DNA of 64,000 bases. Origin: Calditrichia bacterium (GTDB lineage Bacteria > Calditrichota > Calditrichia > RBG-13-44-9 > J075). This document shows positions 3,606 through 56,650 of this stretch, one piece after another. Numbering within the stretch: the first letter of the stretch is position 1; the number at the start of each line of letters is the position of its first letter. The notes below the pieces were generated by a model that was not told where the DNA came from, did no database searches, and saw only the letters and a list, made by a program, of their open reading frames with translations. The position numbers were made by a program, and so were the translations under genes. The stretch is taken from contig JANQQU010000012.1 of the NCBI GenBank assembly GCA_028284905.1, forward strand, positions 124,001-188,000, written 5' to 3'.

Positions 3606-3749
3606 TTTATATTCCGTTTCGATAAAGTGTTCTTATTCAGATCGCCCGTAATAACGGGGGTAAAGCCTTTTTGAGCGGCGGCCAAAGATATAAAATTTTC
3701 CGGGAGGAAGTAATGATAAAAAATAATTCTCGGAAAGAGTGTTAATTAA

Positions 3750-3843
3750 ATGGGCAAATGGGCAAACCCCAAAGGGGCAAGTGGGCAGATGAGCAGATGA
3801 GCAAATGAGCAAATGAGCAGATGAGCAAATTTGTAAATCTGCA
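3750..3843. repeat. Octamer tandem repeat array (TGRGCARA)
   Basis: About ten units of an 8-base motif follow one another: TGGGCAAA twice, a 15-base interruption, then TGGGCAGA, TGAGCAGA, TGAGCAAA and variants ending in TCTGCAAA. The same unit recurs, partly inverted, near 29.5 kb and 56.6 kb. Such short tandemly repeated sequences are known from cyanobacteria and other phyla; their function is unknown. Confidence 0.85.
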
Positions 3844-3880
3844 AACGATCAACGATCAACGAACAACGAATAACGATCAG
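3844..3880. repeat. Heptamer tandem repeat array (CGATCAA)
   Basis: Five consecutive 7-base units (ACGATCA, ACGATCA, ACGAACA, ACGAATA, ACGATCA) start directly after the octamer array. The change from an 8-base to a 7-base unit at one boundary is notable. Confidence 0.85.
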
Positions 3881-29364: not shown

Positions 29365-29470
29365 GGAATACCTCCAGAATGAATTTGAGATTTTTTTTGT
29401 CTCAATATGGGGAATTTTATGTGGAAATCGTTCTTCCCGATGGAGGAGGACGGGTTTTTAGATGAGAAAA

Positions 29471-29532
29471 ATGGGCAAATGGGCAAATGAGCAGTTTTGC
29501 AATTTTGCCCATTTGCCCATTTGCCCATTTGC
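29471..29532. repeat. Octamer array with inverted halves (GGGCAAAT / ATTTGCCC)
   Basis: ATGGGCAAATGGGCAAATGA is followed, after a short T-rich loop, by TTGCCCATTTGCCCATTTGC. The halves are inverted and can form a hairpin of more than 20 base pairs. The unit matches the array at 3750-3843. It lies just past the 3' end of the AraC-type regulator gene. Confidence 0.85.
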
Positions 29533-29547
29533 ATATTTACGCATCTA

Positions 29548-34936: not shown

Positions 34937-34953
34937 TCCCGGAAATTGAATCC

Positions 34954-34990
34954 CTGATTGCCTAATTACCTAATTACCTAATTACCTAAT
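34954..34990. repeat. Octamer array (CCTAATTA) running into a gene end
   Basis: Four units (GCCTAATT, ACCTAATT, ACCTAATT, ACCTAATC) lie between two convergent genes. On the minus strand, the last sense codon and the stop codon of the giant secreted protein (AGG TAA) are themselves part of the array. Confidence 0.8.
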
Positions 34991-45697: not shown

Positions 45698-48600
45698 TTA
45701 TTTAATCAACATCATTTTCCGAACCTGCTGGAATTTTTTTCCGGCCTTGAGGTGATAGAAATACAATCCACTGGCCACCCGTTGGCCGTTTTGGTTTTGG
45801 CCGTTCCAGATGACATTGTGGTATCCTGCATTCATATTTTTATTAATCAAAGTACTAACTAGCTGCCCGGTAATGTTATAAATCTTTAAAGATACAACAT
45901 TCGCTTCCGGCAGGGCAAACTTAATTGTCGTACTTGGATTGAACGGATTCGGATAGTTCTGGCTCAGTTCGAATTTCTCCGGAATCAGTGCATTACCGTT
46001 TTCGTTTTCCTTGCGCAAGCCGCGTCCGTGTTCCAGGCCGATACGGGCATCTTCCCAGGCATCCCGGTATTCCTTGATGGCACGGTCCGGGTCGCCGCTG
46101 GCGATTTCCGCCTCGGCATCAGCCATATCCGCTTGGGCAGCAGCAATGCGGCTATCGACATCGGGATTGCCGGCATAGGCCTGTGCTTCCGCCAGCTTCA
46201 CCTCGGCGAGCATTTTCGCCAGATCAACGATCTCGTCAATTTCATCGTTGGCATCGGCACCATCTGTTTCCGCATCCTGCAACTGCTCCACGGCATCCTG
46301 GAGATCATTATAGCCGTTTTTAATATCGCCATCATTGAAGTCAGCAATAGCATCATTCAACTCATCGATGGCGTCCGCCAGTTCGTCATTTGCAGCAGCG
46401 GAGTAGCCGCCATTGTCGATTAAATCCTGGATGTTCGTAATCGCGGTATTGACATCATCTTCCGCATTCATTCCCTGGGCAATGGCGCTACCGAGATGGA
46501 TCGCCCAGTGCAGCTCCTTGCGGGCATCGGCGAAGCGGCGGATGGCAAGGTCCGGATTTCCACCTGCCAGCTCGTCCTGGGCATCGCTGATAAAGTCCAG
46601 GGCATCCTGGATGTAGTCGTCCACTACCGGATCGCCGGCAAATGTGTTCGCTTCGGTCAGGGCATCCTGTACCAGGTTATTGGCTAGCGCGAGAATTTCA
46701 TCAATCAGGTCAGAAACATTAGCACCGTCATCTGCTGCCTTCATCAGGTCTTTGATGGCATCCTCCAGATCTTTGAAAGCTTCCTGCACATCGTTGCTGT
46801 TCATATCATCGATAGCGTCCTGCAATTCGTCTTTGGCATTCTCCAGATCGTTTGCTGCGGCGGCAGGCAGGCCAGGATCATTAAGCAGCTCATTGATATC
46901 CGTGATGAAATCCCCGGTTATATCTCCGAGCGGACGGTGAAGCACCCAAATTTCTGCCCCATGAGCACCGTCGTCGGCGCTGAAATATAAGGCATCCTCA
47001 TGAACAAAGAATGATTGAGGATCGGAGTTGCTAACGCCGGGGAAGATGTCTGCGGCGAGTTCTGTGCCGTTTGAAGTACCATCACTTTTCCAGAGCTCGT
47101 TACCATTGATACCTTCATTCGCGTTAAAGTATAGTGTTTTGTTAAAAACAATCAATGACGTCGGTTCGCTGCCGGTATTTCCCGGCCGAATATCTTTCAC
47201 CATTTGGGTGCCGTTGCTGCTGCCATCTGTTTTCCAGAGTTCTTTGCCATGTGTGCCGTTATCTGCCTGGAAGTATAGGGCACCATCGAAAACCGTTAAA
47301 TCACTCGGAGAAGAGCTGCTGGAACCATTTCGAATATTTTTTACCAGCTCGGTGCCGCCAAGGGTGCCATCACTTTTCCAGAGTTCGATGCCGCTGTTGC
47401 CATCATTGGCGCTAAAGTAGAGTTCGTTGTTAAATACTGTTAAATATTTGGGAGTAGAACTGCTGTTGCCGGAACGGAGATTTATTGCCAACGTGGTACC
47501 ATTCTTGGTGCCATCGCTTTTCCAGATTTCCGTGCCGCCTGTTGAGCCTCTTGCGCTAAAATAAAGCTGATTATCAAATACAGTTAAATAAGCCGGTGAA
47601 CTCGAGCTACCCCCTGGGCGGATATCTTTTACTATCAATGTACCATCTTTGGTGCCGTCACTTTTCCAGAGTTCATAGCCAGAGCCACCACTGGCCGAGA
47701 AATAAAGGTTGTTATCGAAAACGACAAAATTCTTTGGTATGGAAAAACCACCTCCGGCGCGAATATTTTTTAGTATTTGGGTATTGCCGGCCGTGCCGTC
47801 ACTTTTCCAGAGTTCTGTTCCATTAAAGCCGTCATTAGCAGCAAAAAAGAGATTGTTGCTCATAGCGGTTAATCCGGAGATTAAAGAAGTATGTATACCG
47901 GTACGAATATCCTTCACCAGTGCGGTGCCGCCAATGCTGCCATTGCTCTGCCATAGTTCAGTTCCGCTGATGCCATCGTTCGCGGCAAAATAAAATTGGT
48001 TCTTTAGTGCTGCAAAATCTTTCGGAGATGAAGAAAGGTTGGTGGTGTTGATGTCTTTAAAAAGCATGGTACCGGCAGCAGTGCCATCGCTTTTCCACAA
48101 TTCAAATCCCGTCGAACTGGTAGTCGCACTAAAGTAAAGAGAATTGTTAAAGATAGTAAAATAACTCGGCCCCGAAGCGTCGCTGCCGGGATAAATATCT
48201 TTTACCCGCTCAGTGCCGTTAGTAGTGCCATCGGTTTTCCAGAATTCAGCGCCGCTACTCCCATCGTCAGCCCGGAAATAGAGCGTATTGTTAAAAACGG
48301 TAAAAAATACCGGGTTAGAACTTCCACTATTGGGATTAATATCTTTAACCAACGTAGTCCCACCCAATGTGCCATTACTCTTCCATAATTCTGTGCCATT
48401 ACTGCCAACCCTGGCGCTGAAGTAAAGTAGATTGTTGAAAACAGTTAGATAACTGGGGTAAGAACTAACGTTTCCAGGAGCAAGGTTTACTGCCAGTATT
48501 GTGCCATTTTTGGTGCCATTGGTTTTCCAAATTTCTGTACCGCCAGTTGACCCTGTTGCCCGAAAATAAAGAATATTATTTAAAACGGCGAAATATGCCG

Positions 48601-49300
48601 GGTCGGAGTTTAAACTGCCGCCACGAATGTCTTTTACCATTTGGGTGCCGTTTACGGTACCATCACTTTTCCAAAGCTCCCAACCATTGATACCATTCGA
48701 TGCTTTAAAATAAAATTCATTATTGTAAGTTATAAAAGGGACGCGTAATCCGCCAAAAGCAGAACCACTACCGAGCCGAATATCTTTGAACAGCTTGGTG
48801 TTGCCAGTAGTACCATCGCTTTTCCAGAGCTCTCGCCCTTTTACACCATCAAAGGCTTTAAAATAAAGACTGTTGTTAAATACGTGGATATTATCAGGAT
48901 TTGAATCACCACTACCGGGCCGGATATCTTTAACCAGCATGGTACCTCCGGGGGTCCCATCACTTTTCCAAAGCTCGTTGCCATGAATGCCGTCTTTGGC
49001 GCTAAAATAAAGTGTATTATTGAGAACAGCTAAATAATTCGGGTTAGATGAAGCGCTGCCGGGCCAAATATCTACTACCAGCATTGTGCCCTCCACAGTG
49101 CCATCGGTTTTCCATAGTTCCTTTCCGGTAAAACCATCATCCGCTGCAAAATAGAATACGCCGTTGAGTTCTACAAAATCTTCAGGCTTCGACCCATCCG
49201 GTAGGGTGTTGATGTCAACCAATAATTCCGGGGTTTGACTAAAGGCTGTAGTGGCGCTTATTAATAAGAATAAAAGAATCGTACATAGCTGCATTTTCAT
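45698..49300 (-). CDS. T9SS-secreted ELWxxDGT-repeat protein with helical stalk
   Basis: This 1200-residue protein starts at ATG 49300 after AAGGAGAGG, with a signal peptide (1-21). Fifteen ELWKSDGT-type repeats and a sixteenth truncated one fill about residues 24-800, each about 48 residues with F-N-N-x-L-Y-F-x-A and K-D-I-x-x-G. They should form a beta-propeller-like or solenoid array (ELWxxDGT repeats, TIGR04534). A purely helical, Asp/Ala-rich region follows (about 805-1105; ANDELADAIDELNDAIADF), built of two similar halves. A T9SS sorting domain (QNYPNPFNPSTTIKFALPEA) ends it. It is a surface protein of unknown function, and the helical part may be a stalk. Confidence 0.92.
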   Translation of the reverse strand: MKMQLCTILLFLLISATTAFSQTPELLVDINTLPDGSKPEDFVELNGVFYFAADDGFTGKELWKTDGTVEGTMLVVDIWPGSASSNPNYLAVLNNTLYFSAKDGIHGNELWKSDGTPGGTMLVKDIRPGSGDSNPDNIHVFNNSLYFKAFDGVKGRELWKSDGTTGNTKLFKDIRLGSGSAFGGLRVPFITYNNEFYFKASNGINGWELWKSDGTVNGTQMVKDIRGGSLNSDPAYFAVLNNILYFRATGSTGGTEIWKTNGTKNGTILAVNLAPGNVSSYPSYLTVFNNLLYFSARVGSNGTELWKSNGTLGGTTLVKDINPNSGSSNPVFFTVFNNTLYFRADDGSSGAEFWKTDGTTNGTERVKDIYPGSDASGPSYFTIFNNSLYFSATTSSTGFELWKSDGTAAGTMLFKDINTTNLSSSPKDFAALKNQFYFAANDGISGTELWQSNGSIGGTALVKDIRTGIHTSLISGLTAMSNNLFFAANDGFNGTELWKSDGTAGNTQILKNIRAGGGFSIPKNFVVFDNNLYFSASGGSGYELWKSDGTKDGTLIVKDIRPGGSSSSPAYLTVFDNQLYFSARGSTGGTEIWKSDGTKNGTTLAINLRSGNSSSTPKYLTVFNNELYFSANDGNSGIELWKSDGTLGGTELVKNIRNGSSSSSPSDLTVFDGALYFQADNGTHGKELWKTDGSSNGTQMVKDIRPGNTGSEPTSLIVFNKTLYFNANEGINGNELWKSDGTSNGTELAADIFPGVSNSDPQSFFVHEDALYFSADDGAHGAEIWVLHRPLGDITGDFITDINELLNDPGLPAAAANDLENAKDELQDAIDDMNSNDVQEAFKDLEDAIKDLMKAADDGANVSDLIDEILALANNLVQDALTEANTFAGDPVVDDYIQDALDFISDAQDELAGGNPDLAIRRFADARKELHWAIHLGSAIAQGMNAEDDVNTAITNIQDLIDNGGYSAAANDELADAIDELNDAIADFNDGDIKNGYNDLQDAVEQLQDAETDGADANDEIDEIVDLAKMLAEVKLAEAQAYAGNPDVDSRIAAAQADMADAEAEIASGDPDRAIKEYRDAWEDARIGLEHGRGLRKENENGNALIPEKFELSQNYPNPFNPSTTIKFALPEANVVSLKIYNITGQLVSTLINKNMNAGYHNVIWNGQNQNGQRVASGLYFYHLKAGKKFQQVRKMMLIK

Positions 49301-49829: not shown

Positions 49830-52800
49830 TTACTGTTCTAATTGTCCGTTTCGCTGAAATGCTTTTGGGGTCATACCAAACTGCTTCTGGAAACAGCGGG
49901 TAAAATAGGATTGGCTGCCAAACCCCACCTGATAGGTTATTTCCGCGATGGTGCCGGCATTTTGTTTGATCAACTCCGCTGCCCGGTGCAGGCGCATGGT
50001 GCGGATAAACTCGCTCGCGGATTGACCGGTCAGCGCTTTCAGTTTGGCGTGCAGATTACTACGGCTCAGACCGATCTCTTTCTGAAAGGTTTCCACTTGA
50101 AAATGTTCGTCATCAATGTGCGCTTCCACGATGAGCATCGCTTTTTTCAGGAAGGATTCATCCATTGAGTTTACGGTAATTTCCGATGGTTTCAGCACCA
50201 TTTGTTGTTGAAAGCGGCGTTGCAACTTTTGTCGTTGTTCAATCAAATTGCTAACGCGCACCAACAGTTCCCGGGAGTCGAAGGGTTTACTGAGATAATC
50301 GTCTGCGCCGGTCTTCAGGCCGGTTAACTTGTCTTCTTGTCCGGCTCGGGCCGTCAATAATATAATTGGAATGTGGCTGGTGCGTTCGTCAATTTTTAAA
50401 GCTTCGCATAATTGATAGCCATTCATCTTTGGCATCATCACATCGCTGATCACCAAATCCGGCATTTGCTCAATGGCCATATCAAGTCCTTCCCGGCCAT
50501 TTTGTGCTTCCAATATCCGATACTTTTCCGGGTGGTCCGAACGATTTAGCAAGCACTCCCGAATGTAGGTGCGAAATTCGTTTTGATCTTCCACAATCAG
50601 AATGATTTGAGATTTCGACCTGCCCCTTTCGGATTTTTCGGTGGTTGTGGCACTATTTGTTTCAGGGGTATGATTTAAGGTTTGATGATTGGAAATCTGG
50701 GGAACCATGACGGGCTTGTGAGTGCTTCCATTTTGGGAAGCTGAATTCTCAGCGACGATTTCATCGGCGGCAAAGCAGGCTGAGCCCAGGGGCAATCGCA
50801 CTGTAAATTTGCTGCCTTCCGCCTCTTCGCTCTCCACAGTTATGCTGCCGTAATGGCGCTCTACCAATTCCTTAGTTAATGCCAGGCCGATGCCAGTGCC
50901 TTCATATGCCCGGGTGGAAGTATAATCTACCTGGTAGAAGCGGTCGAAAATATGCGGGAGAAGCTCAGCAGGAATGCCAATGCCAGTATCTTTGACGGTA
51001 ATTATTAGCCAGTTATCAGTTGTCAGTGAACGGTTGTCAGTTATCAATTTATCATCTCTTGATTGACTATTGTTAATTGCTAATTGATCATTGCCAACTG
51101 ATAACTGATAACCGTCAACTGACAATTGCACACTGATCTTACCGCCTTCCGGCGTAAATTTCAGAGCATTGGAGAGCAAGTTGTTAATTATTTTTTCAAC
51201 GATATCCCGGTCAAAATAGATATTGTTCGGTGTTTCATTGGCTATAAACTGCAGGGAAATATTCTTTTGTTCTCCCCAGGATGAGAAACCTAATACCAGC
51301 CTGTTTATGAATTGCACGATATTACCCGGTGCAACCTGCAGCGGCAGTTTTTTTGCGTCCAGGCGGGAGATATCTAATAACTGATTAATCAATTGGTTCA
51401 AGCGACTGGCATTTCTATACACAGTGTTCAACTTTTGTTGGAGTTCCACGGGTTTTATCTTTTCACTGATTTGCTCCAACGATCCTAAAACCAGGGCGAG
51501 CGGAGTGCGGAACTCATGAGAGATATTCGCAAAAAAGCGGGTTTTCAGCTTATCCATTTCCTGCAGTTTTTCGGCCTGTGTTTCCAGTTGGTCTCGCTGT
51601 TGCCGTACTTCCCGGGTGCGCTGGGCGATAACTGTTTCCAAATGTTTTGAGCGATGGCGCAGGGCGCGCTCCCGATAACGAACGATTGCGGTGATTCCTA
51701 ATGTCAGGAGGAATATCGCGAGGGAGTAAGCCCACCAAGTACGATACCATGGTGAAAGAATATTGAATTGAAAAACCGCTGCTTCACTAATATGTTCATA
51801 AACATTTTTTGCCCGCACCCGAAAGGTGTAATTACCTTCCGGCAAATTAGTATAATCAGTTTGGCTTTCGTTGTGCCAATCGGACCAGCCTGCATCGAAA
51901 CCATCTAAAAACACCTGGTAGCGATTTTTTTCCGGCATCTGGTAGGAATGAGCCGCATAGCTAAATCGGATGGTGTTATCGGCATAATTCAATTGGATTT
52001 TTTGTTCCCCGCCAGAGTCGGAAATGCCGCTATCTCCAGCTAACAAACTGTCATTGTTGACCAATATCCGGCGGATTGATACTGTAAAATCTCGCTGATA
52101 ATTTTTGTGTATGTCTGGATCATAGCGTATCAGCCCGTCGGCACCGCCAAACCAGACAATACCGTTTGTGTCGGAATAGATTGTGCCGACACTATAATCC
52201 GCTATTGGCAAAAACGGTTTTTTCGTAACCTTTATCGTATCGCCTTCTTCTGAAATTGATGGCGATATTATCGCGCTTTCGCCACCCATATTGATCCATA
52301 TCCGGCCCTGTTTATCCTCCTGGAAAACATAATCTTCAAACACCTTGGCCACTTTTCTGGAGACAAACTGGTAAGTGCTATCAACATAAAAGGCGCTGGT
52401 GGATTCCCGAAAGCGGTAAAGGCCGGACATTGCCACAAGGTAAGGGCTGCCATCCACCTGACGTAGCATCGCCTCTTCACTCACTGGATCTCCATTAATG
52501 GTAAATTTCTCGATATCGTACAACTTGCCCGGTAGCGTGTAGAAGTTATATTTTAAACGCATTCCACTATATCCCGCTCCCAGCCAGAGTTCCCCTGCTT
52601 TGAACTCGAAGATTGACCGTATCGATCCTCTGATTTCCGGATATTTTCCTTCGTCGACCCACTTGCCGTTTTGCAGGCTGAGTACAATCAGTCCCCGGGT
52701 AGCCCCGGCAAATATTCGGCGAGGATCCAGGCGGGATTGGTGCAGGGATAGGCCATATAGATCTCTGTTAAGGGATGGACGAATATTACGGGAACGGTTA

Positions 52801-54065
52801 TCGAAAATTTCATAAACGCCATCGGATGCTGCTGCCAGCAAGCGCTGCCTGTCGTTTTCAGGATCCTCTACGGTTAGGAATTGGGAGCAAAGGGTTTGCA
52901 AACCGGCAACCTGCCGGAAGCGGTTTGCTACTTCGTCATGATAAAAAGCGCCGAGACGAGTACCGATATACAATCTATCCTGATGGCGATGAATGGTATG
53001 AATGCGTCCTTTAAAGCCATCATACTCATTATAAAAGGATAGCGGTGAAGCAATTGCTAACCTGGAAAGACCGTTGTCCAGCGCCAGCCATAGTCCGCCT
53101 TCGCGATCCTGATAGGTGGCCCAGACGGTATTGCCCTGCAAGCCGTCTTCACTGCTGATGGTTTTAACCATTTTTCCTTGCCGATCAATGATGACTATGC
53201 CGCCGCTTCGCGTGTTAAATACAAACCGTCCGTCTGCCAGGGCGGTGCCGTTTTGATAAATCCTATGCTGTTTTAAATACGATGTTGCCACTTCTTCCAG
53301 AGGAAATGGTTGCAGGGAATCTCCATCAAAAAGCAGCAAACCATTGTAGTAAGTGACGATTAGCAATCTGTCCTCGTCAAAGGGAAAAATGCCGCAAATA
53401 AATGCATCAGCAAGCGGTTCGGTATTGTTTACTAATCGGAAATCGTCACCGTCGGGAACCATTAGCCCGCTGTCGCGCAGCGGGAAATATAGTTGACCAT
53501 TCACTTCGTGCGCAGAACGGAAAGGATATTGAATCTTTTTGGCCTTAGCCTCCCGGGGAGACCAAAGAAAGGTGCCTTCATTAGCAATAAAGTAAACCTT
53601 GTTGTCTGCGGCAAAGGTATGCCAAACCTCCCGGAAAGAGCGATCTTTTTCCTGAACGGTATTTAAAAGAGAAACGTATTGTAATTCTCCCTGAACGTCC
53701 GCCGCCAGGTAGCCGAAATCGCCGGCAGCGCCCACATAAACCCGGCCATTGTTATGATCGACATCGAGCGAGAATACCGGAGAATTATTTGGGACGGGAA
53801 TGCGGCGCCAGGAAACTCCGTCAAACATTAGTATGCCGATACCATTAGCAACATAAATTATACCGTTAGGGTCCTGGACAATTGCCCAATTTTGCGGAAA
53901 TGCATTGTAGTCTTTGGCATCGTAATTTTGAATAAAGGGGAGCCCATTGGGAGCTGAGGAAAGCCATGATGCGGAATTTAAACTATCTCCGGTTTCTCCA
54001 AGGGCTGGCAGTATTAAAGCGGTCGCGATAAACAATAGATGAAGCTGTATCCGTAGAAGAAACAT
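49830..54065 (-). CDS. Hybrid two-component system: periplasmic propeller / kinase / receiver / AraC (1)
   Basis: This 1411-residue one-protein signalling system has a signal peptide (about 1-23). A large periplasmic two-propeller sensor with Reg_prop-like blades follows (about 40-690; GNTVWATYQDREGGLWLALDNGLSRL), then a Y_Y_Y domain (about 700-780) and one transmembrane helix (about 788-808). The kinase has ANISHEFRTPLALVLG, NNLLSNALKF, DTGIGIP and GTGIGLALTKE. A receiver (VISDVMMPKMNG, YLSKPF) and an AraC DNA-binding domain complete it. Such hybrids in Bacteroidota detect glycans and activate nearby uptake loci, but no glycan genes lie here. A repeat-derived insertion of about 40 residues lies between DNA-encoded strands of the ATP-binding domain (about 978-1020). 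Confidence 0.95.
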   Translation of the reverse strand: MFLLRIQLHLLFIATALILPALGETGDSLNSASWLSSAPNGLPFIQNYDAKDYNAFPQNWAIVQDPNGIIYVANGIGILMFDGVSWRRIPVPNNSPVFSLDVDHNNGRVYVGAAGDFGYLAADVQGELQYVSLLNTVQEKDRSFREVWHTFAADNKVYFIANEGTFLWSPREAKAKKIQYPFRSAHEVNGQLYFPLRDSGLMVPDGDDFRLVNNTEPLADAFICGIFPFDEDRLLIVTYYNGLLLFDGDSLQPFPLEEVATSYLKQHRIYQNGTALADGRFVFNTRSGGIVIIDRQGKMVKTISSEDGLQGNTVWATYQDREGGLWLALDNGLSRLAIASPLSFYNEYDGFKGRIHTIHRHQDRLYIGTRLGAFYHDEVANRFRQVAGLQTLCSQFLTVEDPENDRQRLLAAASDGVYEIFDNRSRNIRPSLNRDLYGLSLHQSRLDPRRIFAGATRGLIVLSLQNGKWVDEGKYPEIRGSIRSIFEFKAGELWLGAGYSGMRLKYNFYTLPGKLYDIEKFTINGDPVSEEAMLRQVDGSPYLVAMSGLYRFRESTSAFYVDSTYQFVSRKVAKVFEDYVFQEDKQGRIWINMGGESAIISPSISEEGDTIKVTKKPFLPIADYSVGTIYSDTNGIVWFGGADGLIRYDPDIHKNYQRDFTVSIRRILVNNDSLLAGDSGISDSGGEQKIQLNYADNTIRFSYAAHSYQMPEKNRYQVFLDGFDAGWSDWHNESQTDYTNLPEGNYTFRVRAKNVYEHISEAAVFQFNILSPWYRTWWAYSLAIFLLTLGITAIVRYRERALRHRSKHLETVIAQRTREVRQQRDQLETQAEKLQEMDKLKTRFFANISHEFRTPLALVLGSLEQISEKIKPVELQQKLNTVYRNASRLNQLINQLLDISRLDAKKLPLQVAPGNIVQFINRLVLGFSSWGEQKNISLQFIANETPNNIYFDRDIVEKIINNLLSNALKFTPEGGKISVQLSVDGYQLSVGNDQLAINNSQSRDDKLITDNRSLTTDNWLIITVKDTGIGIPAELLPHIFDRFYQVDYTSTRAYEGTGIGLALTKELVERHYGSITVESEEAEGSKFTVRLPLGSACFAADEIVAENSASQNGSTHKPVMVPQISNHQTLNHTPETNSATTTEKSERGRSKSQIILIVEDQNEFRTYIRECLLNRSDHPEKYRILEAQNGREGLDMAIEQMPDLVISDVMMPKMNGYQLCEALKIDERTSHIPIILLTARAGQEDKLTGLKTGADDYLSKPFDSRELLVRVSNLIEQRQKLQRRFQQQMVLKPSEITVNSMDESFLKKAMLIVEAHIDDEHFQVETFQKEIGLSRSNLHAKLKALTGQSASEFIRTMRLHRAAELIKQNAGTIAEITYQVGFGSQSYFTRCFQKQFGMTPKAFQRNGQLEQ
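51008..51130. repeat. Heptamer array translated in frame inside the kinase gene
   Basis: On the coding (minus) strand about ten CARTTRN heptamers run in succession: CAATTGT, CAGTTGA, CGGTTAT, CAGTTAT, CAGTTGG, CAATGAT, CAATTAG, CAATTAA and others. An inverted set follows (TGATAAC, TGACAAC and similar). It encodes a low-complexity stretch rich in Q, L, N, D and S, without a stop codon. Confidence 0.88.
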
Positions 54066-56341: not shown

Positions 56342-56631
56342 GGTATTCCCCTTGCAGATTTGATTTTGTTTTTCCAGTTGCGTTGGGAAACAGGAAGTGC
56401 CGATCACCTGAATCCCGTGAAAAACTATCAAAAAAGCGGGGCGAAATATTTCACCCTGGTCGCGAATCGTTTCAGATATGTCGTGGGAAAAAGAAAGGCT
56501 GAAAGGCCTGTTGCAAGAGGCTTCCAGTAAAAACGGTTTGTTTTGAAATTATGTCGTACGAGTTATCAATTATGTCGTACGGAAGGGAAGAAAGAGTGTA
56601 AATGGGCAAATGGGCAAGAGTGCTCATTTGC
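56342..56631. other. Intergenic region upstream of the protease gene
   Basis: No gene is visible. It holds the 14-base direct repeat (56547-56581) and the octamer array (56600-56650). The leftward protease promoter must lie here. Confidence 0.5.
56547..56581. promoter_or_regulatory. Tandem 14-base direct repeat with 21-base period (AraC-type operator candidate)
   Basis: AATTATGTCGTACG occurs at 56547-56560 and again at 56568-56581, a 21-base period, which is two turns of the helix. AraC-family proteins bind direct repeats with this spacing, as at araI. It lies about 205 bases upstream of the protease start and just past the end of an AraC-type hybrid kinase gene, which could be its regulator. 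Confidence 0.5.
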
Positions 56632-56650
56632 TCATTTGCTCATTTGCCGT
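56600..56650. repeat. Octamer array with inverted halves reaching into a gene end
   Basis: AAATGGGCAAATGGGCAA is followed by GCTCATTTGCTCATTTGC, the inverted sense of the same octamer. On the minus strand the array supplies the final codons (Q-M-S-K) and the TGA stop of the second hybrid kinase. Confidence 0.8.

Follow-up and report, generated by a model that had tools for sequence, protein, structure and literature searches.

Short tandem repeats and small dispersed repeats exist in cyanobacteria, and the repeat units of the P6b stem-loop in the cyanobacterial tRNA-Leu intron are heptamers. Two repeat classes occur in this stem-loop, one of which has repeatedly replaced the other at a single site (PMC4476775). 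Rickettsia palindromic elements (RPEs; Ogata et al.) are dispersed palindromic repeats that lie both between genes and within protein-coding genes, where they are in frame and free of stops; ERIC and other bacterial MITEs are short non-autonomous repeats that form in-frame ORF fusions (for both, PMC10969869, PMC2229807). The heptameric GGGAATC and GGGGAYT repeats of Xanthomonas and Nostoc are mostly intergenic and are under-represented in coding regions (PMC4692102).

We analysed a 64,000-nucleotide stretch of a Calditrichia genome (the window), in which a hairpin of CARTTRN heptamers is translated inside a hybrid sensor kinase. The heptamer hairpins of this genome resemble RPEs in that they are dispersed (56 sites, six of them in ORFs), palindromic and able to form a long hairpin, and in that copies within genes, such as the kinase inserts, are in frame without stops (PMC10969869, PMC2229807). 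Whereas RPEs are described from many unrelated genes, the in-gene copies of the heptamer repeat belong almost all to a single protein family, where they lie in one loop and in two linkers; six of six in-ORF sites of the type considered first below are in this family. An RPE is also a fixed element of about 150 bp, whereas heptamer arms are variable-length arrays that differ by units, with spacers that vary from copy to copy outside genes (PMC10969869, PMC2229807). With P6b the insert shares complementary repeat arms, one fixed site and length changes by repeat units, although P6b is an intron RNA stem free of any reading-frame constraint and the kinase insert is a translated protein loop (PMC4476775). 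The Xanthomonas and Nostoc repeats are likewise 7-nt arrays found mostly between genes, but they are G-rich quadruplex formers without palindromic arms, and the parts of the source used here report no fixed protein site for them (PMC4692102). ERIC and other MITEs are also short repeats fused in frame to ORFs; as a group they are set apart by terminal inverted repeats that are defined and, often, by target duplications (PMC2229807, PMC10969869).

In-frame palindromic repeats are already known; a literature search found no report of repeats in this kinase loop. We consider it probable that a repeat-accepting loop was colonised several times, and that one coding-compatible insert spread by copying from paralogue to paralogue, its length changing in steps of 21 nt.

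The window kinase and its heptamer insert

The features of the locus, in window coordinates, are as follows.

49830..54065, minus strand: hybrid two-component sensor kinase of 1411 aa (ORF scan and Pfam)
51010..51135, minus strand: CARTTRN heptamer hairpin, with direct and then inverted units on the coding strand (arm pairing, folding and unit scan)
50997..51128, minus strand: in-frame insert of 132 nt, or 44 codons (QLSV...LIIT), flanked by the native strands GGKISV and VKDTGIGIP
51096..51135, minus strand: 5' arm of the hairpin on the coding strand, with CAGTTAT-like units, encoding QLSVDGYQLSV
51010..51049, minus strand: 3' arm of the hairpin on the coding strand, with inverted units, encoding LITDNRSLTTDN
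51037..51056 (C40:175037-175056), minus strand: the window's version of the core GATAAAAAACTGATAACTGA, with 3 mismatches
50610..50632, minus strand: diverged copy of the CCCCGAAGGGGCAGGTC repeat, in the linker immediately before the receiver domain (SERGRSKSQIILIVEDQ)

Pfam assigns to the window kinase a Reg_prop propeller and Y_Y_Y, HisKA, HATPase_c, Response_reg and AraC-type HTH domains. The HisKA domain, the HATPase_c domain with N and G boxes and the receiver domain of a hybrid sensor kinase are all present. The HATPase_c match is broken by the insert, its best stretch beginning at profile position 34, and the key residues of the N and G boxes are invariant across 45 aligned kinases, including those that carry the repeat. 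The nearest named kinase matches are in MAGs labelled BMS3Abin03, Calditrichaeota and candidate division KSB1. Adjoining the kinase gene, at window positions 45698-49300, is a 1200-aa ORF with repeated ELWKSDGT modules and a C-terminal sorting-type motif.

An earlier note on this DNA had described direct CARTTRN units followed by inverted copies, in frame within a histidine kinase ATP-binding domain, at 51008-51130. We confirm the array at 51010-51135 and locate it, in frame, at the tip of the beta-hairpin of the ATP-binding domain. On the coding strand, direct units are followed by inverted ones, and a unit scan of the plus strand gives +6, -11, +4. Between the outer arms (51010-51049 and 51096-51135), complementarity is 80% across 40 nt. 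The hairpin folds as DNA with a z of -5.3, none of 200 shuffles being equally good, and its coding strand folds as RNA at -47.4 kcal/mol (z -6.7). The 132-nt insert is 6 mod 7 and 0 mod 3 in length. As the note had also observed, the loops of the window's two other kinases are variable at this point (after KIIVTMDV and KISVNVSV); neither holds heptamers (period-7 z -0.4 in both).

The repeat across the genome and its reading frame

The genome that holds the window comprises 8.55 Mb in 93 contigs. With up to two mismatches, a CAGTTAT 19-mer matches it 274 times, against zero matches for a reversed control. Runs of at least five units number 74 in a set of 957,650 bases partly selected for containing the repeat, compared with one in a Markov-simulated counterpart of that set. 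An 860-kb sample of 43 regions, nearly blind to the repeat (three of the regions had been chosen for holding a site), includes several families of heptamers and octamers. This sample contains 31 period-7 arrays, one of which lies within an ORF of at least 200 aa, near its upstream end.

Sites were taken at no more than one mismatch to three patterns, two of CAGTTAT type and one of GAATTCC type, which misses degenerate arrays such as that of L141. The two CAGTTAT-type 19-mers have 56 such matches genome-wide, all of which were examined. Six of the 56 are internal to ORFs (40 or more residues to either side of the site), and all six occupy the same HATPase loop of hybrid kinases; one site is at an ORF edge, and other ORFs contain none of the 56. 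Kinases account for about 5% of coding sequence, as estimated without a gene call, so that six of six by chance is very unlikely, although the sites are not all independent. A looser cut-off of three units is near background (31 simulated runs), and we therefore take as chance the 37 matches in other ORFs at that cut-off, one of which overlaps itself on both strands.

Several further arrays were seen in the course of this work. Open frames of about 560-1300 codons terminate within a heptamer hairpin at L166 9912, L169 17539, L170 9831, L176 9506, L177 9455 and L185 7569, where the hairpin may supply the stop codon or replace the gene end. Extragenic paralogous elements that follow kinase genes (L177 9455-9622 and L178 446-578) have the same hairpin and flanks that are about 91% identical; the two hairpins differ by 49 nt, or seven units, a number not divisible by three. 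Octamer arrays with inverted partners in the window (3748-3879, 29469-29538 and 56600-56647; AAATGAGC, AAATGGGC / TTTGCCCA, TGCTCATT) form a further short-unit hairpin repeat family that is also common elsewhere in the genome. Octamer arrays of the CCTAAT/GATTAGGG type, a telomere-like sequence, are found at window positions 34953-34990, L299 16364-16460 and L298 1086-1154, those of L299 being paired in inverted orientation.

Perfect direct units encode QLSVISY in every frame, and perfect inverted units encode LITDN followed by two stops in every frame. After four rows of other repeat families had been dropped, an open frame was found in one of the 23 two-armed elements outside kinases, compared with all five two-armed elements in kinases, each of which is open in exactly one frame. 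The inverted arm of the kinase copies stays in frame because its unit order and variants avoid TGA TAA; in the window kinase, the order of units in the 3' arm sidesteps the TGA TAA that perfect inverted units would produce. Because two-armed extragenic copies are almost never open-framed, the kinase version is a coding-compatible lineage of the repeat. The lack of an open frame in most of them would also explain why the same stop-free version recurs.

It could be that repeats insert anywhere and independently, and that selection leaves those in a harmless loop of a large, redundant kinase family. The 151 HATPase_c matches provide many targets, the interior of the insert is predicted to be disordered while the core is intact, the loops of other genomes hold unrelated repeats, and one array lies in a peptide-synthetase-like protein. 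Yet tolerant linkers are common in other proteins, in which none of the 56 CAGTTAT-type sites lies, and most extragenic copies would close the frame. We regard this explanation as unlikely.

Carriers, the shared core and length steps

Seven kinases of the genome carry the repeat, the seventh of which, L141 (C66:62837), is too degenerate for the site patterns. The inserts of L155, L159, L128, L136 and L141 have their interior and 3' arm in common, and the window copy is a diverged version. L191 is a separate event, since its array of 13 units is single-armed and has no core. In the 8.55 Mb, the core GATAAAAAACTGATAACTGA occurs with zero or one mismatch in four places, all of them kinase loops (L159, L128, L136 and L141). 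Allowing up to three mismatches yields eight places: five kinase loops including that of the window, a heptamer element outside genes on C24, and matches on C10 and C52, at which no array was found. L155 differs from the 20-mer at more than three positions.

The six core-type loops measure 96 nt (one loop), 117 nt (two) and 159 nt (three); each length is 5 mod 7 and divisible by 3, whereas the lengths of 24 other loops of the same genome fall over all residues mod 7. The six differ solely by multiples of 21 nt, equal to three heptamers or seven residues, in a comparison of unit numbers between paralogous copies with one genome per species. A constraint of the frame on total length, as proposed in the earlier note, is thus visible in these steps, which set the loops apart from phase-variable repeats, where unit changes shift the frame. 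Neither a private core nor a common length class is expected from independent insertions.

Over the last 66 nt of the insert, five carriers are 77-89% identical, high identity within a heptamer array being partly a property of the unit. For the same five, identity in the upstream flank (150 nt) is 49-75%, and in the downstream flank 59-79%. The window copy has a different end and an identity of 0.48-0.55 to the carriers over the last 66 nt. In the 30 nt that lead up to the insert, identity is 0.72 among carriers and 0.69 among other kinases; in the 30 nt that follow it, the values are 0.68 and 0.60. A long gene-conversion tract is unsupported, as flank identity next to the insert is barely raised and no tract is visible.

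In a tree of 52 kinases built with the loop removed, the seven carriers do not form one clade. They require six changes, at least five of which are forced by supported branches, and kinases of other genomes are interleaved with them. It is improbable that the insert was present in the common ancestor of these kinases and was then lost or overwritten in most descendants. Such vertical inheritance would account for the common core and position, and also for L155 and L159, which are true sisters with equal insert length, but it is opposed by the forced changes, by the interleaved non-carriers of other genomes and by insert identity that exceeds flank identity. The best fit is copying confined to the insert, with little of its flanks.

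Under the favoured account, in which a repeat-accepting loop was colonised several times, the source would be a dispersed heptamer-hairpin repeat that is mostly intergenic. A variant without in-frame stops in its inverted arm would have landed in one hybrid kinase, in the loop of the beta-hairpin of its ATP-binding domain, and this stop-free variant would then have been copied into the equivalent loop of several paralogues. Arms would lengthen or shorten by whole heptamers, and just the three-unit changes (21 nt, seven residues) would stay in frame and survive. Repeat-accepting sites would be this loop and two linkers that join the ATPase domain to the receiver domain; a second heptamer family of this genome and unrelated palindromes of related genomes are found in that loop as well. 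We infer a direction of copying between kinase loops and its molecular route, which may be short gene conversion or template switching. A possible but doubtful extension is that this is a homing-like coding repeat, a stop-free hairpin copied between the loops of paralogues, with the hairpin serving unrelated repeats and genomes as a safe harbour. Copying in a homing-like manner would proceed, we suggest tentatively, by template switching or very short gene conversion, and kinase loops would be rebuilt in seven-residue steps.

Other occupants of the loop and its predicted structure

The GAATTCC-type family has 42 sites (no more than one mismatch to a 21-mer), 11 of which are in kinases; one further site in a kinase loop is cut by a contig end. 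Its arrays in kinases keep to three sites whose distance from the G1 box is fixed: the ATPase loop, a position 76-86 residues past the box, and a position 118-129 residues past it, just before the receiver domain. Two sites fall in other ORFs and two more at ORF edges (protein readings by eye), and one of the two non-kinase ORF sites is probably upstream of the true start. A clear copy in a gene other than a kinase gene is found once, at L416 (G000 C67:70752), where a GAATTCC-type array and SPKGQA lie in a 1882-aa open frame resembling a peptide-synthetase adenylation domain. Among the matches listed, a subset of the genome, the palindromic 17-mer CCCCGAAGGGGCAGGTC is found almost solely in kinases. 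A GGATTTC-type heptamer-like sequence (CCCCCAAGGGGCAGGTC) occurs in C-terminal sorting-type domains (NYPNPFNP...) at L183 390-418, L188 9456-9484 and L179 1312, and looks as if it sits in a hairpin of that domain.

Kinase loops of related genomes were parsed with regular expressions, which cover part of the kinases (11 loops from 30 loci in G034, 14 of 30 in G008, 14 of 30 in G005 and 23 of 30 in G003, where one 108-aa row was wrongly parsed through a second N-box). The first loops taken from the window's genome (G000) were partly picked for long HATPase matches, and their repeat fraction is not a rate; the 860-kb sample and the census of pattern sites give less biased counts. C/G-run palindromes, unrelated to the heptamers, are present in two of the 14 parsed loops of G005 and in three of the 14 of G008, one of the latter three being of the PPVSPPPSG type. 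The 21-nt palindrome CCCGTCTGGCCACCGGACAGG occupies the same loop in four distinct kinases, all from one genus; an additional match, within a long ORF, looks like chance. No repeat was found in the 23 parsed kinase loops of G003 or in the 11 of G034. G034 has 36 sites of the same heptamer, none of them in kinases, and the proposition that any genome with the heptamer has arrays in its kinases is unsupported. Three of its heptamer sites are in open frames of at least 200 aa, of which, read by eye, two are made largely of repeat translation and one is a native sorting-domain motif. Because G034 and G003 show no kinase-loop repeats, neither intergenic repeats nor many kinases would alone be sufficient. 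We also rejected the idea that CAGTTAT is widespread in relatives: it has matches in six of 60 genomes, a table that includes the window's own genome, and in none of six same-family genomes (G001-G006). No CAGTTAT-type loop was seen among the relatives' parsed kinase loops.

Comparison with other kinases supports the earlier note's view of the array as a DNA repeat and not ancient protein sequence, the insert being unseen in loops parsed from other genomes (81 loops and the G034, G008, G005 and G003 sets). Its suggestion that the repeat had entered a tolerant hairpin holds for the hairpin of the ATP-binding domain, but not as a single entry, as there are seven inserts in paralogues of the same genome. 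The shared core, the 21-nt steps, the second heptamer family and the unrelated palindromes in relatives' loops had all been missed.

Predicted folds of the window and L159 kinase cores have mean pLDDT values of 84.9 and 85.6, with a confident ATPase fold. In the two models, the native strands (131-139/174-181 and 131-141/172-181) take in the outermost repeat-coded residues, and most of the insert interior is below a pLDDT of 50 in both. We infer that the loop is probably disordered and would be harmless to the kinase. A long protein beta-ribbon arising from the palindromic DNA, with QLSVISY facing LITDN, is rejected for now on the basis of the low interior pLDDT, in a test weakened by the insert having no homologues in the alignment.

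Selection could also have driven the spread, if the length or charge of the insert tuned ATP binding, dimer contacts or partner specificity. The seven-residue quanta, the conservation of a KLITDNCLLIT-like peptide end among carriers and the three recurrent sites at domain junctions speak for such an adaptive loop. A predicted disordered interior speaks against it, as do the occupation of the site by differing repeats with differing peptides and conservation at the DNA level, beyond peptide alone; we consider it very improbable.

Palindromic repeats that lie in frame are usually seen spread among unrelated genes; in the present case they concern one protein hairpin, in many paralogues and several genera. 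That one hairpin takes up each genome's resident palindromic repeats, and the same stop-free version recurs. These kinases are a natural experiment in how short repeats move, in why repeats are kept out of genes (22 of the 23 two-armed copies outside kinases close every frame), and in how repeats generate length variation in signalling proteins in fixed seven-residue steps.
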